Below, piece by piece: positions 1 through 14,781 of a stretch of DNA of 23,675 nucleotides. Position numbers and translations under genes: made by a program. The notes below the pieces were generated by a model. It was given only the letters and a program-made list of their open reading frames with translations, had not been told where the DNA came from and made no database searches. This DNA is from a virus, in IMG/VR virus record IMGVR_UViG_3300017782_000228, positions 1 to 23,675 of that record. One strand, given 5' to 3'. Each line of letters starts with the position of its first letter. Position 1 is the stretch's first letter.

Positions 1-72
1 ATGTGGACAAAGCCTCAAGCAATAGAAATGAGATTCGGCTTCGAAGTAACGATGTACATAGCCAACCGATAG
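1..72 (+). CDS. pqqA: PqqA-like PQQ precursor peptide (23 aa)
   Basis: The reading frame opens at base 1 with ATG TGG ACA AAG and stops at TAG (70-72), giving 23 residues. The peptide begins MWTKP and contains R-F-G-F-E-V-T-M-Y followed by I-A-N-R. This is the PqqA pattern, known from family sequences beginning MW.KP and containing GFEVTMY. The Glu and Tyr that PqqE cross-links to make pyrroloquinoline quinone fall at positions 15 and 19, as in the classical 23-residue precursors. The length, both ends and the E-x3-Y core all match. No pqqB-E genes are visible here, so any processing would need host enzymes. The Shine-Dalgarno would lie outside the window. A competing reading frame (3-146) overlaps the whole gene. 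The family call rests on pattern recognition without a search. The role in a phage is unknown: host metabolic supplementation or a decoy substrate are both inference. Confidence 0.72.
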   Translation: MWTKPQAIEMRFGFEVTMYIANR

Positions 73-146
73 ACAAAGAAGTAGAAGAACACAAAGAAGT
101 AAAGGTAGACATACGCAAACTAATTGAAACATTAGATTGCGAATAA
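3..146 (+). CDS. Overlapping ORF or 3' end of an upstream gene, unknown
   Basis: A second frame is open from base 3 (GTG) to TAA at 144-146 and covers the PqqA-like gene in the +2 frame. Its last 25 or so residues (DKEVEEHKEVKVDIRKL then IETLDCE) look like ordinary charged phage coding sequence, and its stop lies one base before the terminator stem. It may be the tail of a gene starting before the window, a GTG-started small gene, or chance. The part over pqqA is the less protein-like half. No family is recognised. Confidence 0.3.
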   Translation: MDKASSNRNEIRLRSNDVHSQPIDKEVEEHKEVKVDIRKLIETLDCE

Positions 147-147
147 A

Positions 148-174
148 GAAAGGATCTTCGGATCCTTTTCTTTT
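148..174 (+). terminator. Intrinsic terminator with C(UUCG)G loop
   Basis: GAAAGGATC (148-156) pairs with GATCCTTTT (161-169; the outermost pair is G-T) around a TTCG tetraloop closed by C-G, an exceptionally stable RNA loop. The right arm runs into a T-rich tract (166-174, interrupted by one C). It lies directly after the stop at 144-146 and before the promoter at 209, so it isolates gp32 from upstream transcription. Confidence 0.88.
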
Positions 175-208
175 GGCTAAACAAATCTATTTTAAATTAA
201 AAATAGAC

Positions 209-237
209 TTGACGGGCTAAATAAAAGAGCATATAAT
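209..237 (+). promoter_or_regulatory. Sigma70-type promoter of the gp32 operon
   Basis: TTGACG (209-214) and a perfect TATAAT (232-237) are separated by 17 bases. The predicted start of transcription is near 244, giving a leader of about 55 bases. The near-consensus match suggests recognition by the host housekeeping polymerase, that is, early or middle expression. Confidence 0.8.
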
Positions 238-243
238 ACATAG

Positions 244-298
244 TATGCATTAGGCATAAAATGACATTTTTTATTAGGCAAACAAAGGAGGCTAACAA
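244..298 (+). promoter_or_regulatory. gp32 mRNA leader: 5' hairpin, repeated ATTAGGCA, strong RBS
   Basis: The predicted transcript starts with TATGC (244-248) and GCATA (254-258), a 5-bp hairpin with loop ATTAG. The octamer ATTAGGCA occurs twice, at 249-256 and 273-280. An A/T-rich single-stranded stretch follows, then a strong Shine-Dalgarno AAAGGAGG (284-291) seven bases before the ATG. Loop bases TTAG (250-253) can pair with CTAA (292-295) between the Shine-Dalgarno and the start, making a possible pseudoknot. In T4, gene 32 is translationally autoregulated through a 5' pseudoknot plus an unstructured leader. The same role here is inference. Confidence 0.5.
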
Positions 299-1306
299 AT
301 GGCATCATTAGCAGAAATTCGTGCAAAACTGCAGGAAGCAAACAATCGCTCAACTGGTAATTCTACTGGAGGCGGTGACAACGCAATTTACCCACATTGG
401 AATATGCAAGAAGGCAGAGAAGCCGTGGTAAGATTCTTACCCGACGGTAACACTGACAACACATTCTTTTGGGTAGAACGTGCGATGATTAAATTACCAT
501 TCGCAGGTATTAAAGGTGAAACGGATAGTCGTAATACTATTGTGCAAGTTCCGTGTGTGGAAATGTACAATGACGGTACTACTTGTCCAATTCTATCTGA
601 AGTACGTGGTTGGTTTAAAGACAAATCACTAGAAGATATGGGTCGTAAGTATTGGAAAAAACGTTCATATATCTTCCAAGGGTTTGTAAACGACGATCCT
701 CTTAACGAAGAGAGAACACCAGAAAATCCTATTCGTAGGTTTATTATTGGTCCACAGATTTATCAAATCATTAAAGGTGCTTTGATGGATCCGGAGTTGG
801 AAGAGTTACCAACTGATTTCCTTCGTGGTGTTGACTTTAGAATCAAGAAAACATCAAAAGGTGGTTATGCTGACTACTCAACATCACAATGGTCACGTAA
901 AGAGCGTGCATTGGCTGAGAATGAGAACGCAGCAGTTGAACAACACGGTTTGTTTAACTTATCAGACTTCCTTCCTAAGAAGCCAGGCGAAGTTGAGCTT
1001 AAGGTTATGAAGGAAATGTTTGAAGCATCTGTAGATGGTGAAGCATATGATGCAGATCGTTGGGGACAATATTTCCGTCCAGCGGGTATGCAACAGCGTA
1101 CAGGAGATCCGAATAAGGCACCACAAACGCCAGCGGCATCAGCACCTGTAACTGCTCCGACTGCTCCGGCAGCACCAGTAGCAACTGCTCCAGTAGTAGA
1201 AGCAACTGCGGCTCCAGCGGCAGCACCAGAAACAGTAACTACTGAAGACAATGGATCGGGTCGTGCGCAAGACATCCTTGCAATGATTCGCAACCGTCAG
1301 CAATAA
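299..1306 (+). CDS. 32: Single-stranded DNA-binding protein gp32
   Basis: This protein coats and protects single-stranded DNA during phage replication and recombination and contacts UvsX, UvsY and the polymerase and primase machinery. The 335 residues show the gp32 layout. The basic N-terminal segment (1-20) fits the cooperativity domain. The OB-fold core includes the stretches YWKKRSYIFQGFV, ENPIRRFIIGP and LMDPE, typical of marine T4-like gp32. An Ala/Pro-rich linker covers roughly 265-315, and the tail ends AQDILAMIRNRQQ. The T4 zinc site has three Cys and one His; here C86 and C96 are seen and the second Cys of T4's CPxC is replaced (CPIL), so zinc binding may be altered or lost. The tail is much less acidic than T4's. 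The start is fixed by AAAGGAGG seven bases upstream. It is the first gene after a sigma70 promoter and is followed by uvsX. Confidence 0.93.
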   Translation: MASLAEIRAKLQEANNRSTGNSTGGGDNAIYPHWNMQEGREAVVRFLPDGNTDNTFFWVERAMIKLPFAGIKGETDSRNTIVQVPCVEMYNDGTTCPILSEVRGWFKDKSLEDMGRKYWKKRSYIFQGFVNDDPLNEERTPENPIRRFIIGPQIYQIIKGALMDPELEELPTDFLRGVDFRIKKTSKGGYADYSTSQWSRKERALAENENAAVEQHGLFNLSDFLPKKPGEVELKVMKEMFEASVDGEAYDADRWGQYFRPAGMQQRTGDPNKAPQTPAASAPVTAPTAPAAPVATAPVVEATAAPAAAPETVTTEDNGSGRAQDILAMIRNRQQ

Positions 1307-1315
1307 AAAAGAGTT

Positions 1316-1367
1316 TATGAGAGTTCCGGCAAAAACCTCCGTACGGTAACCAGCGAGGTCTCTCATA
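1316..1367 (+). ncRNA. Structured RNA, probable pseudoknot between gp32 and uvsX
   Basis: A perfect 8-bp stem pairs TATGAGAG (1316-1323) with CTCTCATA (1360-1367). Inside, ACCTC (1335-1339) pairs with GAGGT (1355-1359), which abuts the outer stem. TTCCG (1324-1328) can pair across with CGGTAA (1344-1349, one bulged base), giving an H-type pseudoknot inside a closing helix. It occupies most of the 83-base gap between gp32 and uvsX and ends just before the uvsX Shine-Dalgarno. There is no U-tract, so it is not an intrinsic terminator. It could be a cis-regulator of uvsX translation, a 3' stabiliser of gp32 mRNA, or a protein-binding site. I do not recognise a known riboswitch class. Confidence 0.55.
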
Positions 1368-1389
1368 CTTTAACAAAGGAAAGGTAATT

Positions 1390-2469
1390 ATGGCAAAAGC
1401 GTTTGACGTAACTAAATTTAGAAAGAGTCTTACAAAGTCTATTGACGGGCTTGGTATTGGCTTTAATGATCCTACAGATTGGATCAGCACAGGCAACTAT
1501 GCACTTAACTATCTTGTAAGTGGCGACTTCCACAAAGGTGTTCCACTAGGCAAGGTAACTGTATTAGCAGGAGAATCGGGTGCAGGTAAATCATATATTG
1601 CTGCCGGTAATATTGTAAAATCGGCACAAGAACAAGGTATCTTTGTAGTACTAATTGACACAGAGAATGCCTTAGATGAGAAATGGCTACACGCATTAGA
1701 TGTAGACACATCTCCAGAAAAGATTCTTAAACTTAATATGTCAATGATTGATGATGTTGCTAAAACAATATCAGAGTTTATGAAAGAATACAGAGATATG
1801 GCAGAAGAAGAACGCCCTAAAGTATTGTTCGTAATTGACTCACTTGGTATGTTACTAACACCTACAGATGTTGATCAGTTTAATAAAGGTGATATGAAAG
1901 GTGATATGGGTCGTAAGCCTAAAGCACTAACATCACTTGTACGTAATACTGTTAATATGATTGGTAGTTATAACGTAGGTATGGTATGTACTAATCACAC
2001 ATATGCATCACAAGATATGTTTGATCCAGATGACAAGATTAGTGGTGGACAAGGCTTTATCTATGCATCAAGTATTGTTGTTGCTATGCGTAAACTTAAA
2101 CTAAAAGTAGACGCAGATGGTAATAAGACTACTACAGTACAAGGTATTCGTGCTGCGTGTAAAGTTATGAAAACACGTTATGCAAAGCCGTTTGAAGCAG
2201 TACAAGTACAGATTCCATATGAAACAGGAATGGATCCATACAGTGGCTGTGTTGACTTGTTTGAAGCAAAAGGTTTGCTGAAGAAAGATGGTAATCGACT
2301 TAAATATACAGACTTAAATGGGGAGGTCCATTTAGAGTATCGTAAAAACTGGACTGGCGATAAACTAAACTTAATTATGGAAGAGCTTGGTAAAGAGCCA
2401 GAGACTGTAGAAGTAGAGGAACCAGTCGAAGTCGAGTTAGAGGAACCAGTAACAAGCAACGGAGAATAA
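1390..2469 (+). CDS. uvsX: UvsX recombinase (RecA/Rad51 family)
   Basis: UvsX is the phage strand-exchange ATPase that forms filaments on single-stranded DNA for recombination-dependent replication and repair. The 359 residues carry Walker A GESGAGKS (61-68) and a Walker B strand ending VLFVID (about 145-150). A loop region TNHTYASQDMFDPDDKISGG (201-220) resembles the DNA-binding L2 region. The length is close to T4 UvsX (about 390). The C-terminal 25 residues are a run of Glu/Val/Pro (EEPVEVE-like), an acidic tail. The start is supported by AAAGGAAAGG upstream of ATG. It sits between gp32 and the uvsY candidate, the order expected of a recombination operon. Confidence 0.95.
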   Translation: MAKAFDVTKFRKSLTKSIDGLGIGFNDPTDWISTGNYALNYLVSGDFHKGVPLGKVTVLAGESGAGKSYIAAGNIVKSAQEQGIFVVLIDTENALDEKWLHALDVDTSPEKILKLNMSMIDDVAKTISEFMKEYRDMAEEERPKVLFVIDSLGMLLTPTDVDQFNKGDMKGDMGRKPKALTSLVRNTVNMIGSYNVGMVCTNHTYASQDMFDPDDKISGGQGFIYASSIVVAMRKLKLKVDADGNKTTTVQGIRAACKVMKTRYAKPFEAVQVQIPYETGMDPYSGCVDLFEAKGLLKKDGNRLKYTDLNGEVHLEYRKNWTGDKLNLIMEELGKEPETVEVEEPVEVELEEPVTSNGE

Positions 2470-2474
2470 AAAGT

Positions 2475-2711
2475 ATGAATAGTGATCTAATAGCAGATAT
2501 ATGGACTATAATGGTTGAACACATCGAAGAGAAGAAAAAGAAAGATGTGGCAGCAAGTTATATAAATGCGCTACTAGATTATGGTGTGAGCGAATCAGTT
2601 ATTCAAGGACTGTTTGGCATTGACACTTATCTAGATGAAGCAGTCGAATACGTCTTGGATGATGAAGAAGTCGAAGACTATGATGAAGATGAAGATGATC
2701 GTTGGGATTAA
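2475..2711 (+). CDS. Small acidic protein downstream of uvsX, unknown
   Basis: The 78 residues have a helical-looking N-terminal half (DIWTIMVEHIEEKKKKDVAA) and a segment LLDYGVSESVIQGLFGIDTY. The extremely acidic C-terminus is nearly all Asp/Glu (EEVEDYDEDEDD). A GGAG lies nine bases before the ATG. It sits between uvsX and the uvsY candidate with only 5- and 3-base gaps, so it is surely co-transcribed and probably linked to recombination. The acidic tail may mimic DNA or contact a basic partner; that is inference. I do not assign a family, although small proteins of this look follow uvsX in other marine T4-like phages as I remember them. Confidence 0.75.
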   Translation: MNSDLIADIWTIMVEHIEEKKKKDVAASYINALLDYGVSESVIQGLFGIDTYLDEAVEYVLDDEEVEDYDEDEDDRWD

Positions 2712-2714
2712 AGT

Positions 2715-3173
2715 ATGACAAATTGGTATGATCTAGTTTCGAAAGACATCAGCAAGATACCAGACGCTGTTGATTATTTCAATACGGAACTAATATCTGC
2801 AAAAGCAGAAATTAAAATTACTGGACGGATCGAGAAAGCATCAGCACACTTGCCTGCTTCCGTAGAAACTAGATTCAGCCAACTTCAAGAAATTGAAGCG
2901 ATACTTGAATATCTTAATATTGAACTTCGTAGATTACGATCTTCACACTTTAGAAAATACGTTGAAAACTATCAAAGACAATTAAGTTCACGTGATGCAG
3001 AGAAATTTGTAGACGGTGAAGCAGACGTAGTTGACTTTGAAAAAATTATTAACGAATTTGCTCTTATACGAAATAAGTGGTTAGGGATTATTAAAGGACT
3101 TGATCAGAAACAGTGGCAATTGACTAACATTGTTAAGTTAAGAACTGCTGGACTTGATGATGCTACTTTGTAA
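2715..3173 (+). CDS. uvsY: UvsY-like recombination mediator
   Basis: UvsY helps UvsX displace gp32 from single-stranded DNA. The 152 residues compare with T4 UvsY's 137 and are mostly charged and helical, with no membrane segment or catalytic motif. The middle (IEAILEYLNIELRRLRSSHF) and the DAEKFVDGEADVVDFEKIIN region parallel the UvsY layout. The C-terminus (WQLTNIVKLRTAG) resembles the end of T4 UvsY, which closes with a short amphipathic helix and a charged tail. Position just downstream of uvsX supports the call. Identity is by layout and context rather than a diagnostic motif. The last 11 bases overlap the convergent kinase gene. Confidence 0.6.
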   Translation: MTNWYDLVSKDISKIPDAVDYFNTELISAKAEIKITGRIEKASAHLPASVETRFSQLQEIEAILEYLNIELRRLRSSHFRKYVENYQRQLSSRDAEKFVDGEADVVDFEKIINEFALIRNKWLGIIKGLDQKQWQLTNIVKLRTAGLDDATL

Positions 3174-3537
3174 TTTCTAACGCTTTTTTCTTTTTCTCAA
3201 GATAATTTTTTACTACATCCGCAAGTTGTGCGTGTGTATCATTAAACCACGTGGCTACGTGATAATTAAATTTTTTAGGTTTTTGAAAATCTGAATTGCT
3301 AGTTACTGTATCCATCCAAACAATATAGTCTGGTTCTAAGTAATCTTTAGCATCATTTGAGTTACAGCGTTTGTCGATTATTACAATCTTGCCTGCTGCA
3401 ACTATACCATCTACGTATCCACGTAGTTCATTTTGGTAACTATCTTTGTTAATATAAACTCCACCAACCAGCTCTGCGAATGGTTTTGCTAGTGTTGTTT
3501 TACCTGACCCTTCTGGTCCACAAATTAGTATTTTCAA
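3163..3537 (-). CDS. Short P-loop kinase, adenylylsulfate-kinase-like
   Basis: The 124 residues begin with a nucleotide-binding loop GPEGSGKT (7-14). Next come YINKDSYQNELRG, a strand IVIIDKRCNSND, and VWMDTV...FQKPKKFNYHV, the order seen in APS-kinase-like P-loop kinases. It is shorter than typical cellular APS kinases (about 175-200 aa), so the substrate is uncertain; a small phosphate-accepting metabolite is likely. The start is TTG at 3537: the minus strand carries AAGGAGG five bases before it and no ATG fits. It is divergent from the glycan operon and overlaps the uvsY candidate tail to tail by 11 bases. Confidence 0.75.
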   Translation of the reverse strand: MKILICGPEGSGKTTLAKPFAELVGGVYINKDSYQNELRGYVDGIVAAGKIVIIDKRCNSNDAKDYLEPDYIVWMDTVTSNSDFQKPKKFNYHVATWFNDTHAQLADVVKNYLEKKKKALEITK

Positions 3538-3554
3538 TATGTCCTCCTTGTTTC

Positions 3555-3595
3555 ACTTCTATATTTACACATAAACTGAGCATATAAATAGAAGT
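3555..3595. promoter_or_regulatory. Divergent promoter region with T4-late-type TATAAATA
   Basis: The 58-base gap between divergent genes contains TATAAATA (3583-3590), identical to the T4 late promoter consensus, five bases before the ATG at 3596. An 8-bp inverted repeat, ACTTCTAT (3555-3562) and ATAGAAGT (3588-3595), bounds the region. The minus strand therefore also reads an A/T element followed by the same ATAGAAGT, ahead of the kinase RBS. Late use by a gp55/gp33-type sigma complex is inference. The plus transcript would start at or beside the ATG. Confidence 0.55.
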
Positions 3596-4366
3596 ATGAA
3601 AACAATTGTATTAGTAACCGGTGGCTTTGACCCACTACACAGTGGACACATTGCCTATTTCAAAGAAGCAAAGAAGCTCGGCGACAAACTTATTGTTGGC
3701 GTGAATAGTGACGATTGGCTTACACGTAAAAAAGGCAGACCATTTATGCCTTTTGATGAACGTCTTGCAATCATTAGAGAACTAGCAGTCGTAGATGATG
3801 TACTTTCGTTTGATGATAGTGACGATAGTGCGTGTGGTGCAATTTTTAAAGCAATGGCCACAAACGGCGCAGTTAAAATTCTATTTGCAAATGGTGGCGA
3901 TAGAGAACAAACTAATATTCCTGAATACGAAACATACGGTGATCATCCTAATGTAGAATTTGCATTTGGTGTAGGTGGCCAAGATAAAAAGAATTCAAGT
4001 AGTTGGATACTTCAAGAATGGAAAAATCCTAAGACAGAACGTGCTTGGGGCTATTATAGAGTACTTCACGAATACGGTAAAAAAGTTAAAGTAAAAGAAC
4101 TTACTGTAGAGCCAGGTAAAAAACTTAGTATGCAACGTCATCAAGATAGAGCAGAACATTGGTTTGTAGCAAAGGGCGAAGCAAGTGTATATACTATTAA
4201 CAACGCAACAGACTACGAACTTCGTGGCACATTCAAAGAACACAAGTCACTGCACATAGGTAATAAGGAGTGGCATATGTTAGCAAATGAAACAGATAAA
4301 CCGCTTCAAATAGTAGAAATTCAATACGGACGTAATTGTGTTGAAGAGGATATCGAACGCAAATGA
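3596..4366 (+). CDS. Nucleotidyltransferase-cupin fusion (sugar nucleotide enzyme)
   Basis: Two domains are fused in 256 residues. Residues 1-125 are a cytidylyltransferase/HldE-C-like nucleotidyltransferase: GGFDPLHSGH (9-18) holds the HxGH motif, and DKLIVGVNSDDW and VVDDVLSFD follow as in heptose-1-phosphate adenylyltransferases. Residues 150-256 are a cupin like the C-terminal domain of type II mannose-6-phosphate isomerases: WGYYRVL, VEPGKKLSMQRH, then RAEHW and VAKGEA, with H182, E187 and H188 as likely metal ligands. The protein may make a nucleotide-activated sugar and isomerise or epimerise a sugar phosphate. Separate activities are known for the families, but this pairing and its substrate are not determined. 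There is no Shine-Dalgarno, and the promoter-like TATAAATA is almost at the ATG. It heads the first glycan operon and overlaps the next gene by ATGA. Confidence 0.82.
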   Translation: MKTIVLVTGGFDPLHSGHIAYFKEAKKLGDKLIVGVNSDDWLTRKKGRPFMPFDERLAIIRELAVVDDVLSFDDSDDSACGAIFKAMATNGAVKILFANGGDREQTNIPEYETYGDHPNVEFAFGVGGQDKKNSSSWILQEWKNPKTERAWGYYRVLHEYGKKVKVKELTVEPGKKLSMQRHQDRAEHWFVAKGEASVYTINNATDYELRGTFKEHKSLHIGNKEWHMLANETDKPLQIVEIQYGRNCVEEDIERK

Positions 4367-5175
4367 ACGATTGGATATTCTTAAGTAAGGATAATAAAGA
4401 TCCGTATATTAATGAATTTGCAGCAGGTTGTAAATCTAGTACAACCGATGCCAACGACTTTAAGTATGACAGTGAAGATGAACGTCCAATCGTGCTCAGA
4501 GGAATACTTAAAAAGAAAATTATGCACAAGTGTTTTGAAGATAATAGAGATTTCTATTATATGGATACAGGATACTTTGGCAATGAAGTTACAAAAAGCA
4601 ATCCTAACGGTTGGAAGTATTGGCACAGAATTGTTAAAAACGATTTACAACACGGCAATATTATTGAACGACCAGATGACAGATTTAAACAGTTTAAGAA
4701 AGAGTTTGCGCCTTGGAAGAAAAGCGGACGTAAAATTTTAATTGCTGCTCCTGATGAAAAGCCTTGTAAATTCTACGGTATTAATTTGGAAGAGTGGTTG
4801 CACACAACTGTTGCTCAATTAAAAAAATACACTGATCGTCCTATCGAAGTAAGACGCCGAGATAAACAAAGAAGCACACGTTTAACAGATACATTAGAAC
4901 AAGCATTAAACAAAGATGTATTTGCACTAGTTACATTCAACAGCAATGCAGCAACAGAGTCAGTATTTCACGGTATACCTGTGTTTCCACTAGCGCCTGC
5001 AAACTCTGCAATAGCAGTTGGGAGTAAAGATTTAAGTCTAATAGAAACACCTTACTATCCATCAGAAGATAAAAGATATGCTTGGGGTTGTCATTTAGCA
5101 TACGGCCAATATCACGTAAGTGAATTAAGAACAGGCAAGGCCAAAAAACTTTTGGAGGAACAATGGAAAAACTAA
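4363..5175 (+). CDS. Putative GT-B-like glycosyltransferase, paralogue A
   Basis: The first of five related proteins in the window, 270 aa. Family hallmarks are MDTGYFGN (67-74), YWHRIVKN (86-93), a P-D-D-R (104-107), KKYTDRPIEVR (154-164), and NSNAATESVFHGIPVF (193-208). The last block resembles the C-terminal nucleotide-sugar site of capsule-type and CDP-glycerol-type GT-B enzymes, where a Ser/Asn-rich loop and a 'GxPV' strand follow each other. The C-terminus shares a 'hydrophobic-YGQYHVSELRTG-A' ending with the other copies. There are no membrane segments or signal peptide, so it is cytosolic. The start overlaps the previous stop (ATGA) with AGAGGA upstream. Transferase activity and substrate are inference; family membership among the five is seen directly. 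Confidence 0.72.
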   Translation: MNDWIFLSKDNKDPYINEFAAGCKSSTTDANDFKYDSEDERPIVLRGILKKKIMHKCFEDNRDFYYMDTGYFGNEVTKSNPNGWKYWHRIVKNDLQHGNIIERPDDRFKQFKKEFAPWKKSGRKILIAAPDEKPCKFYGINLEEWLHTTVAQLKKYTDRPIEVRRRDKQRSTRLTDTLEQALNKDVFALVTFNSNAATESVFHGIPVFPLAPANSAIAVGSKDLSLIETPYYPSEDKRYAWGCHLAYGQYHVSELRTGKAKKLLEEQWKN

Positions 5176-5852
5176 AAGTATTTGTAGGATATGATCCTAG
5201 AGAAGACATTGCATATCAAGTATGCAAACACAGCATTGAGTCGAGAAGTCCTAATGCAGAAGTAATACCTTTAATACAAAAAGATTTAAGAGAGCAAGGG
5301 TATTATGACAGACCAATTGACAAACTAGCAAGTACAGAATTTACATTTACAAGATTCTTAGTACCTGAACTAAGCAACTTTAATGGCTGGGCAATGTTTA
5401 TGGATTGTGATATGATCCTTACAACAGACATTGCAGAACTATTTGCACAAGCAAATGACGACTATGCTTTAATGTGTGTAAAGCACGACTATACACCTAA
5501 AGCAGGTATTAAAATGGACGGACAAGCACAAACTGTGTATCCACGTAAAAATTGGTCAAGTGTAATGCTTTTTAATTGTAGTCATCCAAGCAATCAAGAT
5601 ATTAACGTACAACTTGTTAATGATCCAACAGTTACAGGAAAATATTTACATAGATTTAGTTGGCTTGACGATAAAGAAATTGGAGAACTAAGTCCGGAGT
5701 GGAATTGGTTAGTAGGTTGGTATAAAGAACCACAAGACGGAACTCCAAAACTGTTACACTATACAGAAGGCGGTCCTTGGTTTGAAAACTACAGACACTG
5801 TCAATATAATCAACTATGGAAAAAAGAACTAAGTGAGATGATGAATGGATGA
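5163..5852 (+). CDS. GT8-like (GT-A fold) glycosyltransferase
   Basis: The 229 residues begin KLKVFVGYDPREDIAYQVC, continue with STEFTFTRFLVPEL, and reach the metal-binding DxD, MDCDM (DCD at 81-83). This is the order of GT8 and related retaining transferases that use UDP-sugars and Mn2+. A late LLHYTEGGPWF segment fits the second half of the donor site. It probably acts in the cytosol or on a membrane-attached acceptor. The start is decided by GGAGG about six bases before ATG, inside the end of paralogue A (13-base overlap). It sits between paralogues A and B, so it is likely part of one glycan-building series. The sugar donor and acceptor are unknown. Confidence 0.82.
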   Translation: MEKLKVFVGYDPREDIAYQVCKHSIESRSPNAEVIPLIQKDLREQGYYDRPIDKLASTEFTFTRFLVPELSNFNGWAMFMDCDMILTTDIAELFAQANDDYALMCVKHDYTPKAGIKMDGQAQTVYPRKNWSSVMLFNCSHPSNQDINVQLVNDPTVTGKYLHRFSWLDDKEIGELSPEWNWLVGWYKEPQDGTPKLLHYTEGGPWFENYRHCQYNQLWKKELSEMMNG

Positions 5853-6624
5853 AACACTAGGACTTGAAGAATCATTAGTAAAAGGTAGCAACAACCGTCT
5901 TACGTTAGATGCTAACGATACTACTAAGCCGCAAGTTATACGTGGTGTAATCAAAGACCATCATCGAAATAATGCACAAGCGATTGGAAGAGATTATTGG
6001 TATATTGATACAGGTTACTTTGGAAACTTTCCTAGTGCTGGTAACAAGAAAGGCCAAAAGAAGTGGCACCGTGTTGTTAAAAATGAAAATCAACAAGTTG
6101 ACATTGTAGATGTTCCATCAGACCGTTGGGAAAGATTAGTTAATGACGATCCAAGACTAGTTTGGAAAGGATGGAAAGATTACGATAAAAAAATACTGTT
6201 AGTAATGCCTAATCCAAAAGCCTGTAAATGGTATAACATCAATTACGATAAATGGGTTACTGATACACAAGAACAAATTGCCAAATACAGCGACTTGCCA
6301 GTTGAAGTACGTATAAAAGGATCACGCAGAGAACGTAATGCAGGCTATACAATATATGATGCATTTGATAGTGGTGTTTATGCTACTGTTGCAATGAATA
6401 GTATGGCTGCACTAGAATCAGTTCTATACGGTATTCCTGCTTTTGTAAGTGTTCCGTGTGCTGCTAGTCCTTTAGCATCAATGGACTTATCACAACTAGC
6501 AAATCCAGTTAAACCTAAATTTAAACACATAGAAAGGCATTGTAAGAATCTTGCATACACACAATTTACTATTGAAGAAATACAAAGTGGTATTGCATAT
6601 AAACTTACTGAACAATATCGATGA
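5845..6624 (+). CDS. Putative GT-B-like glycosyltransferase, paralogue B
   Basis: 259 aa, closest in layout to paralogue A: IDTGYFGN (54-61), KWHRVVKN (73-80), P-S-D-R (91-94), AKYSDLPVEVR (146-156), and NSMAALESVLYGIPAF (185-200). The 'TDRP' of the other copies reads SDLP here, and NSNAA reads NSMAA. It overlaps the GT8-like gene by 8 bases and the next paralogue by ATGA, so expression is translationally coupled. Its N-terminal 28 residues are unlike the other copies. The function is inferred as for A, with a different donor or acceptor likely. Confidence 0.7.
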   Translation: MDETLGLEESLVKGSNNRLTLDANDTTKPQVIRGVIKDHHRNNAQAIGRDYWYIDTGYFGNFPSAGNKKGQKKWHRVVKNENQQVDIVDVPSDRWERLVNDDPRLVWKGWKDYDKKILLVMPNPKACKWYNINYDKWVTDTQEQIAKYSDLPVEVRIKGSRRERNAGYTIYDAFDSGVYATVAMNSMAALESVLYGIPAFVSVPCAASPLASMDLSQLANPVKPKFKHIERHCKNLAYTQFTIEEIQSGIAYKLTEQYR

Positions 6625-7736
6625 AACTACTTTTAAATGACAAAGAAATAGCAAACTACTTACTGCACACTATCGGTGTGCCAGCAGGACTGTATAAATT
6701 AAGACCAACTGACAGAAATGCTGCCGAATGTGTACAGGCTTTCCTAAAGCGCAAAAACAAAGTCCGTGAATGGAATATGAATCCAGAAGTTGCAAGAGCA
6801 GAGAAGAAAAAGTTTGCAAATAAACTAAAAAAAGCAGTTGCTAACGATTTAACTGATTATCGTAATGCTGTGAAGCAAGAAAAATTTAATTTACGTAATG
6901 CATACTTTAATACTATTCATAAAGAGATAGAAACACTAATAGAGCATTTCGGCGAAGACAATATTCTTAAAAAATATAAAAAAAGCGATGTTACAGAGTT
7001 TGTAAAAGGCTGCGGACTTAACTTAGACCCTAAAGGGCAGTTAATGCGTAGACATAAGTTCACTAGTTACACAGAAGATTGTGTAATTAGAAATACTGTT
7101 GGTAATGAAGAATTATTAGTTAATAAAATAGACAATAATCACCCTATGTGGTTTATTGACAGCGGATATACAAACTTTTTAGAACAAAATAAGAAATGGC
7201 ATAGACTAGTACGCAACCATTTACATTACGGAGAGTTTTTTCAAGCACCTGCAGATAGATTAGGCAACTTTAAAACGTTTCCTAAGCCTTGGAGAGAAGA
7301 CGGCGAGATAATCTACGTAATTGAGCCAGGACCATTTGCTGCAAGTGTATTTCATTGCGATTTAAAGACTTGGAAATATGATGTAGCAAGAGAGTTACGT
7401 CAGTATACTGACAAGCGCATTAAATTTAGATCCAAAGCACCTAAAAGACAACGCACAAACTTATATAAAGAACTAGCAGACGATGATTATTGCTGTGTTG
7501 TCAGTATTAATAGTAATGCTGCTACAGAAGCAATTTGGCAAGGTGTACCAGCCATTACATTAGGCGCACACGTAACTAATCCAGTAACTGTAGACAAACT
7601 AAGTGACATAAACAACCTATATAGGGGTCCATTAGGCGAATGGTTATGTATGTTAAGTTACCAACAGTTTACTAAGGAAGAAATTGTAACAGGAACAGCA
7701 GGGAACTTGGTTAAAAAGTATACGGTCAATGAGTAA
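6621..7736 (+). CDS. Putative GT-B-like glycosyltransferase with helical N-terminal extension, paralogue C
   Basis: 371 aa. Residues 150-371 match paralogues A and B: FIDSGYTNF (178-186), KWHRLVRN (192-199), P-A-D-R (210-213), RQYTDKRIKFR (260-270), and NSNAATEAIWQGVPA (297-311). Residues 1-150 are an extra Lys/Glu/Asn-rich, mostly helical domain (for example ARAEKKKFANKLKKAVAND). It has no recognised fold and may bind the acceptor or a partner. The coupled start is ATGA. The extension is encoded in the same reading frame with no sign of a frameshift. The glycosyltransferase role is inferred from the shared family motifs. Confidence 0.7.
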   Translation: MKLLLNDKEIANYLLHTIGVPAGLYKLRPTDRNAAECVQAFLKRKNKVREWNMNPEVARAEKKKFANKLKKAVANDLTDYRNAVKQEKFNLRNAYFNTIHKEIETLIEHFGEDNILKKYKKSDVTEFVKGCGLNLDPKGQLMRRHKFTSYTEDCVIRNTVGNEELLVNKIDNNHPMWFIDSGYTNFLEQNKKWHRLVRNHLHYGEFFQAPADRLGNFKTFPKPWREDGEIIYVIEPGPFAASVFHCDLKTWKYDVARELRQYTDKRIKFRSKAPKRQRTNLYKELADDDYCCVVSINSNAATEAIWQGVPAITLGAHVTNPVTVDKLSDINNLYRGPLGEWLCMLSYQQFTKEEIVTGTAGNLVKKYTVNE

Positions 7737-8652
7737 GAGAACAGCAGTAGCATATTTTGCTGGCATTCCGCCACAAAATAACAATCCAGAGAAACCATTA
7801 ATACTAAAAAACTTTATCGAAGGTGTAAATGCCGCTGGAGACACTGGTATTTCACATCAAGGCTTTAATGTTCTTGAGTGTGACGTTGCATTTATACAAG
7901 GTTTTGTACACGAACACGGAAAAACATCGCCGCATTTACTATTACGCAGAAACGCAGTAGAAAAACAAAAACAAGTGGGCAAACGGTCACTAATTGTTGA
8001 TAGTAACTTGTTTTTATATGCAGATCAAGGTAATACAAAAACATATCTGCGTTACAGTTTCGATGGAGTCTTTCCTACTACAGGATTTTACTTTGATAAG
8101 GATATTGATCCTGCAAGATGGAAAAAAATTAGTGCAGAACTTAATTTACCACTTAAAAATTACAGAAAAGATGGCAAACATATCTTAGTTTGCTTACAAC
8201 GTAACGGTGGATGGTCAATGAAAGGCATTCCTGTAATGCAATGGCTAACTGATACTATTAGAGAAATTAAAAAACACACTGACAGACCAATTGTAGTAAG
8301 AGCGCACCCAGGTGATAAAAAAGCAAGAAGATATTTGCATATTAATGAGCCAAATGTGTTTGTATCCTGGGCACCAAACATACGAAATGACTTACTTAAT
8401 GCTTGGGCAACTGTAGTTTACAATAGTTCCCCTAGTGTAGCAAGTTTAATTGAAGGAGTACCTGTATTTGTTACAGATACTGACCCAAGTGTAAGCCAAG
8501 TTAATGGAGTTTGCAATACAAACTTAAAAAGACTAGAAGATCCAAAAATGTATGACAGACAAGAGTGGATAGAAAGACTATCAATGTGTCATTGGAACTT
8601 TAACGAACTAAAAAGTGGTGAAGCCTGGTCTTTTTTTAGGAGATACATATGA
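7729..8652 (+). CDS. Putative GT-B-like glycosyltransferase, paralogue D (capsule-type HP motif)
   Basis: 307 aa. It belongs to a second branch of the local family, with paralogue E. It has KGIPVMQWLTDTI (165-177), KKHTDRPIVVRAHPGD (181-196), YNSSPSVASLIEGVPVFV (231-248) and the shared C-terminal WNFNELKSG-A. The R-x-HP and the Ser-rich loop with 'GVPVF' resemble the C-terminal halves of capsule-synthesis transferases of the KpsC/KpsS type. The N-terminal half (1-150), with AGIPPQNNNPEKPLILKNFI, fits a first Rossmann-like domain. It lacks the D-x-GYFGN/KWHR block of A-C. It overlaps C by 8 bases and ends by ATGA into the methyltransferase gene. Substrate unknown. Confidence 0.72.
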   Translation: MSKRTAVAYFAGIPPQNNNPEKPLILKNFIEGVNAAGDTGISHQGFNVLECDVAFIQGFVHEHGKTSPHLLLRRNAVEKQKQVGKRSLIVDSNLFLYADQGNTKTYLRYSFDGVFPTTGFYFDKDIDPARWKKISAELNLPLKNYRKDGKHILVCLQRNGGWSMKGIPVMQWLTDTIREIKKHTDRPIVVRAHPGDKKARRYLHINEPNVFVSWAPNIRNDLLNAWATVVYNSSPSVASLIEGVPVFVTDTDPSVSQVNGVCNTNLKRLEDPKMYDRQEWIERLSMCHWNFNELKSGEAWSFFRRYI

Positions 8653-9401
8653 GAAAACTAGCCAATGGATGGCACGTACCTGAAGGTGATACAAAAATGA
8701 CAAGACATATCGAAACAGATAAGTCACCGTCACTTGCAGAGTATGAGCAAAAGCAAAGAAAAACAATTTTAGAACATATTCCGCAAAAAAATACTTTTGT
8801 TGACGTAGGTGCTAACGTTGGTGTATGGAGTATGACACTACAACAACATTTTAAGCACGTTGTAAGTTATGAGCCAAGCAAACGTAATGTAGAATGCCTC
8901 GAGAATAATGTTCAAGGCAAGACAGAAATTAGAAATACTGCACTTTCCGACTTCAATGGCGAATCACAGTTTCACGATGAAATTAAAAATTGCGGAAACA
9001 GTAAATTATGGGCAGAATCATCACAGACTGGGTTATACAAAGTACCCGTAAGAAAATTAGACGATGAAAATATTGAAAATATTTCACTAATTAAAATGGA
9101 TGTTCAAGGATATGAATGGCAAGTTATACAAGGCGCACAAAATGTTATAGAGACACAACAACCTTGGATAGCATTTGAAGTAAGTGCTGATGTAGACGTA
9201 ATTTGCAAGTTTTTAGAAGATAGAAATTACGATATGATTGATAATAAGAGTAAACGTATTCTTATCTATGCACCGAAATCAGGAATCAATGCACCTACAC
9301 AAAATGCATTTGGTAGACGTATGGGTCCTGGACCTTATGTGTTACTATTACCTGAAGATAAACAACAAATTGCAGCAGCACGCCACGGAAATTTATCGTA
9401 A
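8649..9401 (+). CDS. FkbM-family SAM-dependent methyltransferase
   Basis: FkbM-type enzymes O-methylate sugars and other small molecules using S-adenosylmethionine. The 250 residues show SAM motif I FVDVGANVGVWS (50-61), an acidic end of strand 2 (VVSYEPSKRNVECLENN), and the family's late motif LIKMDVQGYEWQVIQGA with WIAFEVS. A TAGGAG lies seven bases before ATG; the gene overlaps paralogue D (ATGA) and closes the first glycan operon. Its stop overlaps the convergent glycosyltransferase gene by 9 bases. A sugar hydroxyl on the operon's glycan is the likely target, by context only. Confidence 0.88.
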   Translation: MRKLANGWHVPEGDTKMTRHIETDKSPSLAEYEQKQRKTILEHIPQKNTFVDVGANVGVWSMTLQQHFKHVVSYEPSKRNVECLENNVQGKTEIRNTALSDFNGESQFHDEIKNCGNSKLWAESSQTGLYKVPVRKLDDENIENISLIKMDVQGYEWQVIQGAQNVIETQQPWIAFEVSADVDVICKFLEDRNYDMIDNKSKRILIYAPKSGINAPTQNAFGRRMGPGPYVLLLPEDKQQIAAARHGNLS

Positions 9402-10238
9402 TTGATTTTGCCAGTAAGGCTCAGTACGCATAATTTTTAAATCATCACGCTTACTATGTCCTAATTGTTTTCTACCACCTTTAAGATGATCTAAGTATGC
9501 ACCCCATTCACAATTAATTAATGGATGCCCTTCCCCTGTACTCATTCCAGGTCTTGGCCTAAGATCTCCAAGGTTAGATGACCAACTGTGTGACGGCATT
9601 TTTGGAAACTTCCTTCTAACTTCATCAAATACAAAACTATCGTGCCATTCTGCCATTGTAAAGATTCCGTTTTCTGCTTCATCGTATACACGCTGGAATT
9701 CACCAAGGAATCTTTTAATACTTTTTGTACCTAACTTCATTGCATACAGTCCACATTCACTATATTTGCCTCTACGCCCTAAGTAAAACAATTCAGACGG
9801 TGCCGGAAGCAATCGTTGTATATCAGCGTGAGTAATTTTTGAGTGACAAATTGTATCAGCATCCATCCACATCAAATATTCTGTATTGCATTCTTTAGCA
9901 CAAGCAAAGATACTATAAGCTTTGTGTGCAAAGCGAACAGCGTGCCATTTAAAACCTTTGCCACTGTCTCTTCTTCTAGATCTAATTGGATCAGCAGATA
10001 CATCGCCATTTGCTTTGGGTACATTTTTCCATTTATCTTTAAATGCAACAAGTTCAGGACTTGCTTGATGTAAATCTTTAACAATTAAATTATCTGCTGT
10101 TTCTTCTACTATGCAATCTTCAGCATATACATATAAATTAATATCTGCAGGCCAGTTTTCTAAGAAAGTCTTAATCATTCTTTTGCCGTATGTATCGTAA
10201 CCTGCTTTGTGAAATGTTGTAACTATACTGATATTCAT
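9393..10238 (-). CDS. GT-A-like glycosyltransferase, copy 1
   Basis: 281 aa on the minus strand. It begins MNISIVTTFHKAGYDTYGKR, followed by VRFAHKAYSIFAC (101-113) and a DxD metal site YLMWMDADT (DAD at 126-128). Then LGRRGKYSECGLYAMKLG matches the region after DxD in copy 2 at 15791. The pattern 'F-(W/Y)-x2-(V/K)-RFAHK-(A/S)-Y' before the DxD is shared by both copies and is a good fingerprint of this subfamily. An Arg-rich insert (PIRSRRRDSGKG) is unique to this copy. No transmembrane segment is seen. Its start overlaps the stop of the upstream minus-strand gene (TGA inside the ATG region), so the two are coupled. Donor and acceptor are unknown. Confidence 0.76.
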   Translation of the reverse strand: MNISIVTTFHKAGYDTYGKRMIKTFLENWPADINLYVYAEDCIVEETADNLIVKDLHQASPELVAFKDKWKNVPKANGDVSADPIRSRRRDSGKGFKWHAVRFAHKAYSIFACAKECNTEYLMWMDADTICHSKITHADIQRLLPAPSELFYLGRRGKYSECGLYAMKLGTKSIKRFLGEFQRVYDEAENGIFTMAEWHDSFVFDEVRRKFPKMPSHSWSSNLGDLRPRPGMSTGEGHPLINCEWGAYLDHLKGGRKQLGHSKRDDLKIMRTEPYWQNQLR

Positions 10239-10636
10239 TTAATTTTGTCCCATATATGATATTTGTCGCCTTGTACTAAACAATTATAATTAGCCGCATA
10301 AAGTGCAACACTTCTGTCTCTTCCAATAACTTCTTTACCTTCGACTATAACTTCAGGACCTGGATTATGGTATAACGGTGATATTAAATCCAACGCCTTA
10401 ATGTGTTCAAGGTCAACAAATACTGCCGACACTGATGACAACGCATACAAAGTTTTCATTTCTCTTCTATATACTACTTTTTTGTCTTTAACATACATTC
10501 CTGTTCTACTGTGTATAAAAACAGTATCAAACATTTCGATAATAGAAGGTAATAAGTTCATTCCTGAGCCTATTACAATTGCATCTTTAGGAGTATGCAG
10601 TAAAGTTTTTTGTAATCTTTTGGTATGTTTTTTCAT
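10235..10636 (-). CDS. Unknown protein, Rossmann-like N-terminus
   Basis: 133 aa, first gene of a two-gene minus-strand unit with the GT-A-like gene (4-base overlap). It contains AIVIGSGMNLLPSIIE followed by TVFIHSRTG and VSAVFVDLEHIKALDLI, an alternation of strands and helices that suggests a small alpha/beta nucleotide- or SAM-like fold. No catalytic motif is recognised. I do not know the family. Coupling to a glycosyltransferase suggests a role in the same glycan pathway (inference). No clear Shine-Dalgarno precedes its ATG. Confidence 0.7.
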   Translation of the reverse strand: MKKHTKRLQKTLLHTPKDAIVIGSGMNLLPSIIEMFDTVFIHSRTGMYVKDKKVVYRREMKTLYALSSVSAVFVDLEHIKALDLISPLYHNPGPEVIVEGKEVIGRDRSVALYAANYNCLVQGDKYHIWDKIK

Positions 10637-10655
10637 TGGCTAATTTACTTTAATA

Positions 10656-10709
10656 TATTTAAGTAATTTGTCCATTCTGCACAAAATTATTGGCTACTGT
10701 ACTTAAATA
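10656..10709. promoter_or_regulatory. Divergent promoter candidate: inverted TACTTAAATA pair
   Basis: The 79-base divergent gap contains a perfect 10-base inverted repeat: TATTTAAGTA (10656-10665) and TACTTAAATA (10700-10709). Each strand thus carries TACTTAAATA ahead of its own gene, 19 bases before the minus ATG and 6 bases before the plus ATG. The core (TTAAATA) is two changes from the T4 late element TATAAATA, and no -35 hexamer is evident. A late-type bidirectional promoter is the likeliest reading. Confidence 0.45.
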
Positions 10710-10715
10710 CTACTG

Positions 10716-11576
10716 ATGCGTTTTAAGTTATATAGACAACACGGTGCGTTAAACAGTCCTAGTATTTTTGATGCATTTCAGACAGGACTAATAGCACAAG
10801 GACACAAAGTCGTAAATGACAACGAAGATGTTGCTGTCATTTGGTCAGTATTGTGGAACGGCCGTATGTCTGCTAACCAACAAATTTATGAAAAATGTCG
10901 GAAAGATAACAAGCCTATAATTATTATTGAAGTAGGCAACTTAAAAAGAAATACAACTTGGCGCATATGTCTTAATCATATTAATGGATTAGGAGAGTTT
11001 GGTAGTGACGCCGACTTAGATGTAAACAGACCTAAAAAATTAGGTTTACAAATGTCGCCACCTAATACAAATAGACGTAACGAAATCCTTATTGCAACAC
11101 AACATCATAAAAGTTTGCAATGGCAAGGAATGCCGTCAATGGCTGAATGGACATTACAAACTATAGAAAAAATTAAAAAATATACAGATCGTCCTATTGT
11201 TATTAGGCCGCATCCAAGGTCACCTATGTCTGGCATCGAACACGAATTTACAAATGTAAAAAGACAACAACCTGTAAAATTATCTGGAACATACGACAAC
11301 TTTGATATCGATTATAACTATCACGCTGTTGTTAATCATAATAGTGGACCTCCTATACTTGCTGCTATTGCAGGCACTCCAGTAATTACAGGCGACAGCA
11401 GTCTTGCATATCCTGTTAGTGATACTATAGAAAACATTGACAATCCTAAACTTCCTGATGATAGACTTTTATGGTTTACAAAACTTACGCATTGTGAATG
11501 GACTGTTGACGAAATAAAACAAGGCACTCCGATAAAAAGATTAGAAAAGTTTATAAAAATGCAAGTAAGTTATTGA
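10716..11576 (+). CDS. Putative GT-B-like glycosyltransferase, paralogue E
   Basis: 286 aa, the fifth copy, separated from the others by the minus-strand pair. It pairs with D: WQGMPSMAEWTLQTI (136-150), KKYTDRPIVIRPHPRSP (154-170), NHNSGPPILAAIAGTPVIT (207-225), and a C-terminal CEWTVDEIKQGTP. The conserved R-x-HP and the NS-rich loop with 'GTPV' match capsule-type transferases. The N-terminal half starts FKLYRQHGALNSPSIF and includes a strand DVAVIWSVLW, consistent with a first Rossmann domain. No Shine-Dalgarno is visible; a TTAAATA element ends six bases before the ATG. It is a single-gene unit followed by a separate sigma70 promoter. Confidence 0.7.
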   Translation: MRFKLYRQHGALNSPSIFDAFQTGLIAQGHKVVNDNEDVAVIWSVLWNGRMSANQQIYEKCRKDNKPIIIIEVGNLKRNTTWRICLNHINGLGEFGSDADLDVNRPKKLGLQMSPPNTNRRNEILIATQHHKSLQWQGMPSMAEWTLQTIEKIKKYTDRPIVIRPHPRSPMSGIEHEFTNVKRQQPVKLSGTYDNFDIDYNYHAVVNHNSGPPILAAIAGTPVITGDSSLAYPVSDTIENIDNPKLPDDRLLWFTKLTHCEWTVDEIKQGTPIKRLEKFIKMQVSY

Positions 11577-11601
11577 CTTCTTAAGTTATAGACTTTATAA
11601 T
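11566..11601 (+). promoter_or_regulatory. Sigma70-type promoter with tandem operator-like repeat (uvsW operon)
   Basis: TTGACT (11573-11578), 17 bases, then TATAAT (11596-11601). A 14-base direct repeat with one mismatch, TAAGTTAT(T/A)GACTT, occurs at 11566-11579 and 11582-11595. One copy covers the -35 and the other fills the spacer up to the -10, with a 16-base period. The -35 lies inside the last codons of paralogue E. The -10 ends six bases before the ATG at 11608. Confidence 0.7.
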
Positions 11602-11607
11602 AAACTT

Positions 11608-12783
11608 ATGACACATTTAACTTACATAGAAGATCTATTCCTCAAGGTTATGGACATTATGGACCAGAACCTATTAGGTATGCAACATCACGATCAGTCT
11701 GCTGCTAGAAGTTTTTATAACAGTATTAGTGCAGGAAAAGATTTAACTGAAAAACAAGGTGCATATATTTTAAAGATTATTTACAAATATAGAAATAGTG
11801 TAAGGCCGTTTATCGAGGTTGAACCTTATCTAGATCATCCTCTGTGGAGTAAACCCTTTAGAGTTGTTGACCTAGCAAAAGAAGTGTGGGTAGAACAAGA
11901 TACTATCAAGACACCATTGATATGTCTTAAATTTCCATACAGTCTAAAAGATGACTTTGAAAATGTGTTCAGACCAAAGATTGAAAAAGGTCATTACTGG
12001 AACGCTGATAGACGTATTAGACAAATTAATCTTTACAAAGCAAATGTTGTAGAGATAGAAGAATGGTGTGTGAATAACGAATTTACTATTGACGATACAT
12101 TTACAAGTTGCGTTGACCAAATAGAAGAAATATGGCAAGAGCGTTCTACATACGAACCACATAGTATTGTAGACGAAGGCGAAGTACAACTTGTAAATTG
12201 TAGCGAAGATACAGAAACATACTTTCTTAAAAAGTCAAATGGTAATATTGTTAATGATATGTTCCTTGCAAAAAGTATGGGATATCCGCTTCTTAATCCT
12301 GATAGATCTCTTGCACAACAAATAAGCAGTAACCGAGATAACACGTTTTGGATAAAAAATGTAGATGAGTTTTTAGAGTTAGGATATCAAGTAAACGGTC
12401 AAATTGTTATACTATTAGATAGAGCAGCAGATGCATTAGACTATATGAAAGAGTTAAAAAACACAATAGATTACTACAAATATAACACAAATGACTTTAG
12501 AGTTTGCTTTAGAACCAATAACAAAGACAATCCAGAATTTAATGTTTGGGTACGTGATAACAAGTTTGGAGGAAAAATAGATGGTGCAAAGTTTCTAATC
12601 TTCCAACATAAGCCACCTAAGTGGTTGTTCAAACAGAAGAATGATGTTATAATAGTGGCTACTAATAACTTAATGCCTTCTACGTATGGCTTGACTAGAG
12701 ATATGTTAGAGTCAAGTCCTATTGTATTTTACGTAGGAGAAATTGAACCAAGTAAAGGACGAAAGAAGATTGTCGAACTGTAA
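11608..12783 (+). CDS. Unknown protein upstream of uvsW (391 aa)
   Basis: This soluble 391-residue protein has no P-loop or other catalytic motif that I recognise. The N-terminal quarter includes LTEKQGAYILKIIYKYRNSV. The middle, HYWNADRRIRQINLYKANVVEIEEWC, resembles the small substrate-recognition segments that precede helicase cores. The C-terminal half has alternating strands (GQIVILLDRAADALDYMKEL, FRVCFRTNN, DVIIVATNNL). Its 3' end overlaps uvsW by 14 bases, so the two are translationally coupled and probably work together in DNA branch processing (inference). No Shine-Dalgarno precedes ATG 11608, and the promoter's -10 ends six bases upstream, so the mRNA may be leaderless. An internal ATG at 11650 with a weak AAGG is the alternative start. 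A degenerate helicase-related fold is possible but unproven. Confidence 0.78.
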   Translation: MTHLTYIEDLFLKVMDIMDQNLLGMQHHDQSAARSFYNSISAGKDLTEKQGAYILKIIYKYRNSVRPFIEVEPYLDHPLWSKPFRVVDLAKEVWVEQDTIKTPLICLKFPYSLKDDFENVFRPKIEKGHYWNADRRIRQINLYKANVVEIEEWCVNNEFTIDDTFTSCVDQIEEIWQERSTYEPHSIVDEGEVQLVNCSEDTETYFLKKSNGNIVNDMFLAKSMGYPLLNPDRSLAQQISSNRDNTFWIKNVDEFLELGYQVNGQIVILLDRAADALDYMKELKNTIDYYKYNTNDFRVCFRTNNKDNPEFNVWVRDNKFGGKIDGAKFLIFQHKPPKWLFKQKNDVIIVATNNLMPSTYGLTRDMLESSPIVFYVGEIEPSKGRKKIVEL

Positions 12784-14227
12784 GTTAATTATTAAAGATG
12801 AAGTAAACGTAAAGTTTGAAGGACTTGCCGTTGAAACACGAAGAAAAATTGTAAACAAACTAAAGTTTGATTTGCCGTATGCTCGTCATATGCCTGCATT
12901 TAAACTAGGTAGATGGGACGGCACTGTAAGTTTCTTTGGTATTGGCGGTAACGGATATCTTGCACACTTAGACGTTGCACTGCCAATTGTTGAGAATGAC
13001 GGATATGATATTGAAGTAGTTGATCAACGTGTTGCACCTAATCTTGAGTTTGATAAAATTACAGAAAACTACTGGGCTGATCAAGGAAAGACTTGGCCTA
13101 AAGGACATCCTGAAGAAGGCACGCCTATTGTGCTACGTGACTATCAGTATGATGTAGTAAACAAGTTTTTAGAAAATCCACAGGCACTACAAGAAGTTGC
13201 AACAGGCGCAGGTAAAACAATCACCACAGCAACACTAAGTCATTTATGTGAACCATACGGTCGTACAATGATTATTGTTCCTAACAAAAGTCTTGTTGTA
13301 CAAACTGAAGAAGACTATGTTAACTTAGGTTTAGATGTTGGTGTATACTTTGGTGATAGAAAAGAATTAAACAGAACACACACTATTTGTACGTGGCAAA
13401 GTTTAAACGTACTAGATAAGAAAAGTAAAGACTACGAAGCAGTACTAACACTTGCAGAATTTATTGAAGGTGTAAGTGCAATTATAATTGACGAAGTGCA
13501 TCAAGCAAAAGCAGATGTACTTAAAAAATTACTTACAGTAAACTTCCGTAATGCTCCTATACGTTGGGGACTTACAGGCACAGTGCCTAAAGAAAAGTGG
13601 GAGTTTCAAGGCATACTTGCAGGTATTGGTCCTGTAATTAATAACGTATCAGCGCACGACTTGCAAGAAAGAGGCGTGTTAGCAAACCTCGATATACAAA
13701 TTTTACAAAGTAAAGATATCGAAACCTTTAGAAACTATGCCGAAGAATATACTTGGCTAGTAACTGATAACAACCGTTTAGATTGGATTAGTGATCATAT
13801 CAATAAGATTATCAAAGACGGAAATACACTTATACTTGTTAATAGAATTGACACTGGTAAAAAACTACTAGAGAGATTACCTGATGCTACATTTATCAGA
13901 GGAGATGTAAAACTTGATGATAGAAAAGAGCAATATGATGAAATTAAAACAAGCGATGGTAAAATTATTATCGCTACTTACGGCGTTGCCGCAGTGGGTA
14001 TTAATATTCCTCGTATTTTTAACCTTGTTCTTATTGAGCCTGGTAAGTCTTTCATACGTGTTATTCAGTCAATTGGCAGAGGCATACGAAAAGCAGAGGA
14101 CAAGGATTTTGTCCAGATTTGGGATATGACTTCAAGTTGTAAGTACGCAAAGAGACACCTAACAGAAAGAAAAAGATTCTACCGTGAAGCAAAGTATCCT
14201 CACAGCGTCACGAAAGTAGATATTTAA
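12770..14227 (+). CDS. uvsW: UvsW superfamily 2 DNA/RNA helicase
   Basis: UvsW unwinds branched DNA and R-loops and helps the switch from origin- to recombination-dependent replication. From TTG 12770 it has 485 residues, close to T4 UvsW (about 500). The N-terminal domain contains FKLGRWDG, matching the small DNA-recognition domain of T4 UvsW. Helicase motifs follow: RDYQ, Walker A ATGAGKT (144-150), DEVH (241-244), WGLTGT (266-271) and the late QSIGRGIR arginine-finger motif. A further TTG lies at 12743 in frame, but the product would start with residues unlike the family; TTG 12770 starts just before the conserved CKLIIKDE with AAAGGA upstream. It overlaps the preceding gene by 14 bases and is followed by an AAGGAG-led gene. 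Confidence 0.92.
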   Translation: MSNCKLIIKDEVNVKFEGLAVETRRKIVNKLKFDLPYARHMPAFKLGRWDGTVSFFGIGGNGYLAHLDVALPIVENDGYDIEVVDQRVAPNLEFDKITENYWADQGKTWPKGHPEEGTPIVLRDYQYDVVNKFLENPQALQEVATGAGKTITTATLSHLCEPYGRTMIIVPNKSLVVQTEEDYVNLGLDVGVYFGDRKELNRTHTICTWQSLNVLDKKSKDYEAVLTLAEFIEGVSAIIIDEVHQAKADVLKKLLTVNFRNAPIRWGLTGTVPKEKWEFQGILAGIGPVINNVSAHDLQERGVLANLDIQILQSKDIETFRNYAEEYTWLVTDNNRLDWISDHINKIIKDGNTLILVNRIDTGKKLLERLPDATFIRGDVKLDDRKEQYDEIKTSDGKIIIATYGVAAVGINIPRIFNLVLIEPGKSFIRVIQSIGRGIRKAEDKDFVQIWDMTSSCKYAKRHLTERKRFYREAKYPHSVTKVDI

Positions 14228-14236
14228 GGAGAATAA

Positions 14237-14743: not shown

Positions 14744-14781
14744 TAATTACTAATAATAGAACAACAGGTAAGGAAGGACTA

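Follow-up and report, generated by a model that had tools for sequence, protein, structure and literature searches.

The window analysed here (the whole stretch of DNA, 23,675 nucleotides, corresponding to an entire IMG/VR record) opens with a 23-codon gene for the precursor peptide of PQQ, and we consider it probable that this genuine, selected PqqA is a lone auxiliary metabolic gene sustaining host PQQ for methanol dehydrogenase. Hundreds of further viral sequences contain the same tiny gene by itself, suggesting that such viruses keep the methanol-burning enzyme of their hosts supplied during infection. On a broader scale, we lean towards the view that lone pqqA is among the commonest and most re-acquired metabolic genes in viruses of PQQ-making methylotrophs, which would carry the consumable only, often behind a capsid gene for dosage and, in one lineage, with a riboswitch.

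The peptide translated from positions 1-72 (MWTKPQAIEMRFGFEVTMYIANR*, with E-x3-Y at positions 15 and 19) scored about twice the curated cut-offs of both family models, namely PF08042 (PqqA; 4e-11, 43 bits, cut-off 21.1) and TIGR02107 (the PqqA equivalog model in NCBIfam; 9e-11, 41.4 bits, cut-off 20). Searching the entire record with PF08042 gave 5.9e-12, no match to this model was found in 14 control genomes, and no relatives were found in the PDB. Judged by its sequence, and in line with the original prediction of a PqqA with Glu15 and Tyr19 at the cross-linking positions, the peptide is a genuine PqqA (Table 1).

Related phages, where the original prediction had proposed to look for it, also carry the peptide. 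These relatives were gathered by DNA patterns that fix part of the peptide; selection was therefore re-measured outside the patterns, and the Glu and Tyr residues were checked with a pattern stopping before them. Across nine distinct gene copies of the window's group, pN/pS was 0.21 in frame 1 versus 1.08 in frame 2 and 1.47 in frame 3, and, when only codons not covered by the search patterns were counted, it ranged from 0.21 to 0.33 across four large sequence classes. Purifying selection thus acts on pqqA in frame 1 only, the frame in which a test for constraint had been proposed. It had also been proposed that a chance match would reveal itself by conservation of the overlapping frame 3 (3-146) at the expense of the peptide, and the opposite was observed, with early stops in frame 3 in three relatives (L014, L064 and L112) that all retain PqqA. 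Furthermore, Glu15 and Tyr19 were present in all 226 viral PqqA (earlier matches pooled with 120 stretches from the scan ending before residue 15), and residues 16 and 18 vary.

Table 1. Features of the window and glutamine riboswitches of other viral loci.
Feature	Position	Strand	Basis or detail
pqqA, 23-codon PQQ precursor peptide gene	1-72	+	MWTKPQAIEMRFGFEVTMYIANR; PF08042, TIGR02107, pN/pS, ribosome-binding site
Glu15 codon, cross-link residue	43-45	+	Sequence; Glu in 226/226 viral PqqA
Tyr19 codon, cross-link residue	55-57	+	Sequence; Tyr in 226/226 viral PqqA
Frame-3 ORF of the original prediction, unconserved as a full-length gene	3-146	+	Early stops, pN/pS 1.47 within pqqA
Terminator-like hairpin 3' of pqqA	148-169	+	GAAAGGATC-TTCG-GATCCTTTT then CTTTT
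Sigma-70-like promoter of gp32 (predicted)	209-237	+	TTGACG-17-TATAAT, 11/12 matches
gp32-like single-strand DNA-binding protein, phage-lineage anchor	299-1306	+	phrog_1192 1.5e-65; tree
UvsX/RecA-like recombinase	1390-2469	+	PF00154 3.6e-16; 60-67% identity to large myoviruses
RF01739 between major capsid gene and pqqA	L048 7676-7722, L067 4406-4452, L041 718-764 (minus strand)		
Further RF01739 loci of the T7-like group	L037, L068, L070, L082, L087, L101, L104, L115, L124		

The record begins exactly at the ATG of pqqA; this is merely a contig end, since bases 1-12000 of the window are 100% identical to the interior of two longer contigs (92,486 bp and 32,374 bp). In these contigs the ATG is preceded by a Shine-Dalgarno-like TATAAAGGAAACATT, and a terminator-like hairpin belonging to the upstream gene lies 5' of pqqA. 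At the position equivalent to the hairpin found 3' of pqqA, the three relatives with a broken frame 3 have hairpins of different sequence. Since gp32 has its own predicted sigma-70-like promoter (such matches being no more frequent in this region than in shuffles), pqqA is probably transcribed separately from gp32. The T4-type late promoter TATAAATA was no more frequent in the window than expected by chance, and a related motif showed no enrichment in L077. An Rfam search of the window returned nothing convincing, the glutamine riboswitch of other phages being absent here. Between pqqA and gp32, the stretch 73-146 (frame 3, ending ...RKLIETLDCE*) is kept in near relatives and may be what is left of a 72-aa gene (...IKLLAANGDCV*) occupying this place in L014, L064 and L112. 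The gp32-uvsX spacer (1306-1390) contains a strong-looking nested inverted repeat (TATGAGAG...CTCTCATA) with no Rfam match.

The 92-kb contig, from the same phage, encodes a terminase, a portal, a tape measure, a tail fibre and a tail sheath; to go by this gene content, the source of the window is a contractile-tailed phage. The terminase, portal, sheath, gp32 and uvsX genes share the contig with pqqA, so that a metabolic gene of host type sits within a bona fide phage genome. It lies ~95 nt 3' of a virion structural gene, and 226 nt separate it from the downstream gp32, itself followed by uvsX. Both gp32 and uvsX have their closest counterparts in large myoviruses (Phosso, Atu_ph07 and PA5oct, for example), in which no PqqA match was found. 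In a gp32 tree of 73 rows, the window's population (L095) fell in a clade of 14 (support 100/99), 11 members of which have pqqA 5' of gp32. A twelfth carrier (L686) was placed outside this clade, and the well-supported branches force at least three trait changes; within the window's group, retention of pqqA is clade-wide. Of the gp32 relatives that share 67-88% identity and extend far enough upstream, a count that leaves out the near relatives collected earlier, three had pqqA nearby and 68 did not. Together with the tree, this split shows pqqA to be a clade-specific gain, as a host-linked gene should be. Four stretches of the 92-kb relative, 68 kb in all, contained no tRNA genes that could have given a clue to the host.

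Beyond this lineage, true phage matches in 50,697 phage records were restricted to nine Methylophilales/Methylophilaceae phages (MEP401/402, MEP301, Venkman, P19250A and four Melnitz isolates) and one spring-water podovirus. The nine methylophage records span three or more unrelated lineages (Venkman, P19250A and MEP301 may be related to one another); other named Methylophilales phages exist (MEP431-434, HIM624-A), and the observation concerns these nine carriers rather than all methylophages. In the cultured methylophages, pqqA is unannotated, or a hypothetical protein is called on the opposite strand. Viral contigs gave at least 120 matches for each of three C-terminal PqqA variants, 111 matches for the R[LI]GFE[VI]TMY class, and the alphaproteobacterial type (GMEINMY) in about 7 of 12 cases. 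Approximately 23 loci of the R[LI]GFE[VI]TMY class adjoin a cytochrome-like gene (no PHROG or Pfam match); these may be cellular and were excluded as evidence. PqqA genes of this second large class (PTYENVRLGFEITMYF, L262-L372) often lie directly 3' of phrog_267 or phrog_334 capsid genes. Acinetobacter phage MD-2021a was rejected as a pqqA phage of a non-methylotroph, its record CAKLQF020000010.1 holding ppk and pqqABCDE and being seemingly bacterial chromosome; a second record bears the same label (CAKLQH020000055.1, L008). One viral contig with pqqA (L061) also holds a betaproteobacterial two-piece tmRNA (2058-2433, minus strand; tag ANDERFALAA), either a phage tmRNA or an integration site, which points to a betaproteobacterial host.

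In agreement with the original prediction of a precursor travelling without its maturation enzymes, PqqD and PqqE were absent from both the window and the 92-kb contig of the same phage. This lone state extends to other viral sequences, with no PqqE over the cut-off and no PQQ-dependent alcohol dehydrogenase in 48 records (including six complete phage genomes), no PqqD in 14 records, and no methanol dehydrogenase in the window, the 92-kb contig or 47 other records.

Sorted by their adjacent genes, 485 loci formed 71 neighbourhood groups, both neighbours being known in 61 of them. In 110 of the 485 loci, pqqA is the next gene after the major capsid gene, and five capsid families precede it: two T7-type phrog_267 groups, phrog_371, phrog_138 (T4 gp23) and phrog_334. 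A rough binomial for five capsid sites gave P values of 0.001, 0.02 and 0.09 for 21, 40 and 60 independent insertions, respectively, at 4% per insertion, this number of insertions being uncertain. The capsid-adjacent sites therefore give no more than a hint of a dosage effect. The gene is also found in the order regA|pqqA|hsp20|DNA polymerase and, for the clade of the window, as structural gene|pqqA|gp32, pqqA not being next to a capsid gene in the window's phage. One T7-like group has, in 12 loci, a glutamine riboswitch (RF01739; 53-57.5 bits, cut-off 35) ~125 nt upstream of pqqA. Between the two is a small ORF (MSWQDFCRKREL... or MLWTNYCRKNEI...), the latter version being in frame with PqqA. 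A tandem pair of glutamine riboswitches was also observed in L020 (3696-3808, minus strand); located ~1.7 kb upstream of pqqA, it was rejected as a pqqA regulator and probably serves another gene.

The MWTKP...RFGFEVTMY type of PqqA was found in 116 stretches of bacterial genomes. Of these, 80 were listed; the entries with a genus or family name belong to methylotrophs (Methylophilaceae, Methylophaga and relatives), and the others have broad names only. In 12 such genomes, 2-12 pqqA were present in each, and PqqE exceeded the cut-off in 11, with one apiece. Methylophilaceae are known to carry 3-12 pqqA and typically one pqqBCDE (PMC4109929), and of the two pqqA copies with the highest expression in a PQQ producer grown on methanol, one is a stand-alone copy (PMC9851590). 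The dependence on host PqqB-E expected by the original prediction, along with its proposal to seek pqqBCDE in candidate hosts, therefore finds its counterpart in bacteria that share this PqqA type and possess pqqE. The rest of the PQQ pathway is thus present in the candidate hosts; the host of the window's phage is itself inferred. The suggestion of the original prediction that the peptide is informative on host metabolism also gains substance, these bacteria being methylotrophs, and the phage very probably infects methanol-eating bacteria.

We propose that the phage PqqA peptide would be made inside the infected cell, where its Glu15 and Tyr19 would be cross-linked by PqqD and PqqE of the host, whose PqqB and PqqC would complete PQQ together with a protease. 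The cofactor would load host methanol dehydrogenase, so that the flow of energy and carbon from methanol could persist during phage replication. Only pqqA would be carried because PqqA is consumed, one peptide per PQQ, and the enzymes are reusable; a phage halting the renewal of host messages would see PqqA exhausted before PqqB-E, and a 72-bp substrate gene alone would maintain the supply of PQQ to methanol dehydrogenase at the lowest cost. Such a supply of a consumable would account for the lone pqqA, the link with methylotroph phages, the kept cross-link residues and the capsid-adjacent sites. Against this, hosts already possess many pqqA copies, and an extra one might add little; the position of pqqA in the window's phage, apart from any capsid gene, and the failure to find a T4-type late promoter also speak against it.

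Four other readings have to be weighed. The gene is short and a frame-3 reading frame overlaps it, as would be the case for a random short ORF, but the E-values of 4e-11 and 9e-11, the selection confined to frame 1 and the broken frame 3 of relatives rule out such a chance match, the probability of which is vanishingly small. It is very unlikely that a host pqqA was captured by recombination as a useless passenger: the many dispersed host copies make capture easy, but purifying selection, clade-wide presence in the window's group and the many separate sites occupied in small phage genomes argue against it.

The original prediction had considered both a raised PQQ output and a titration of PqqD/PqqE. 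The former, in the sense of raised or sustained output, is favoured here, and the latter is weakened, since Glu15 and Tyr19, unneeded by a decoy and expected to be lost in one, are invariant in the 226 viral sequences. A peptide occupying PqqD/PqqE could lower PQQ or divert the radical-SAM enzyme and shut down host methanol oxidation, and a lone precursor without enzymes is how a competitive decoy should look; yet the entire peptide matches working host PqqA and is identical to host copies in some phages, making this role quite improbable. A use of PQQ other than in methanol oxidation, as an antioxidant, for another quinoprotein (e.g. a sugar or alcohol dehydrogenase) or after release to neighbours, is unlikely. 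The R[LI]GFE[VI]TMY and alphaproteobacterial GMEINMY types in viral contigs do indicate that hosts are not all Methylophilaceae, but the nameable bacteria with the window's PqqA type, among the matches listed, are methylotrophs, and the cultured phages infect methylotrophs. The supply of PQQ to methanol dehydrogenase therefore remains our preferred reading.

Compared with known systems, the window's copy resembles Methylophilaceae PqqA (PF08042/TIGR02107) in its length, N-terminal MWTKP, RFGFEVTMY core, Glu15/Tyr19 and C-terminal NR/NK, and the stand-alone state is shared with some host copies (PMC4109929, PMC9851590); it differs by its location in a phage genome with no pqqBCDE after it. Phage pqqA is already known from the Lake Baikal T4-like virus VP_266, which has a predicted Methylophilaceae host and was proposed to aid methanol oxidation (Coutinho et al. 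2020, PMC7678222), and the window adds another case. The two are likened by description and, unlike the window's phage, VP_266 also has methanol dehydrogenase (PMC7678222). Among the viral genes listed in a 2026 study is pqqA, which is taken no further there (PMC13188868). The methylophages MEP401/402, MEP301, Venkman, P19250A and Melnitz likewise have one lone pqqA each, but belong to other phage lineages than the window's. Phage pqqA goes unmentioned in the papers on Melnitz, MEP301, MEP401/402 and Venkman, and the open-access literature yielded no prior account of how widespread it is, of its lone state, of its capsid-adjacent sites or of the riboswitch arrangement. Viral pqqA has probably been overlooked because 23 codons fall below the limits of gene callers.

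Cyanophages carrying psbA (photosystem D1) replace the fastest-used-up part of an energy machine. The parallel is only an analogy, psbA encoding a catalytic subunit and PqqA being a consumed substrate peptide. Consumable precursor peptides may represent a class of phage metabolic genes missed by annotation pipelines due to their size, and the 23-codon pqqA would be a cheap metagenome marker for viruses of PQQ-making hosts. Coastal seas and lakes are rich in methylotrophs such as OM43 and Methylopumilus, which burn methanol via PQQ-dependent enzymes; if most methylotroph phages bring a PQQ precursor, cofactor supply would be a bottleneck of infection and viruses would act directly on aquatic methanol turnover.

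Two further gene sets were observed in the window's phage population. A long sugar/glycosylation block spans positions 3596-18200 of the window and includes a cytidylyltransferase-cupin fusion, a family 8 glycosyltransferase, FkbM methyltransferases and a GDP-mannose dehydratase. In addition, three consecutive ORFs resembling phage tryptophan halogenases (phrog_2928) were found in L735 (14859-19381) and L736 (6-1163).
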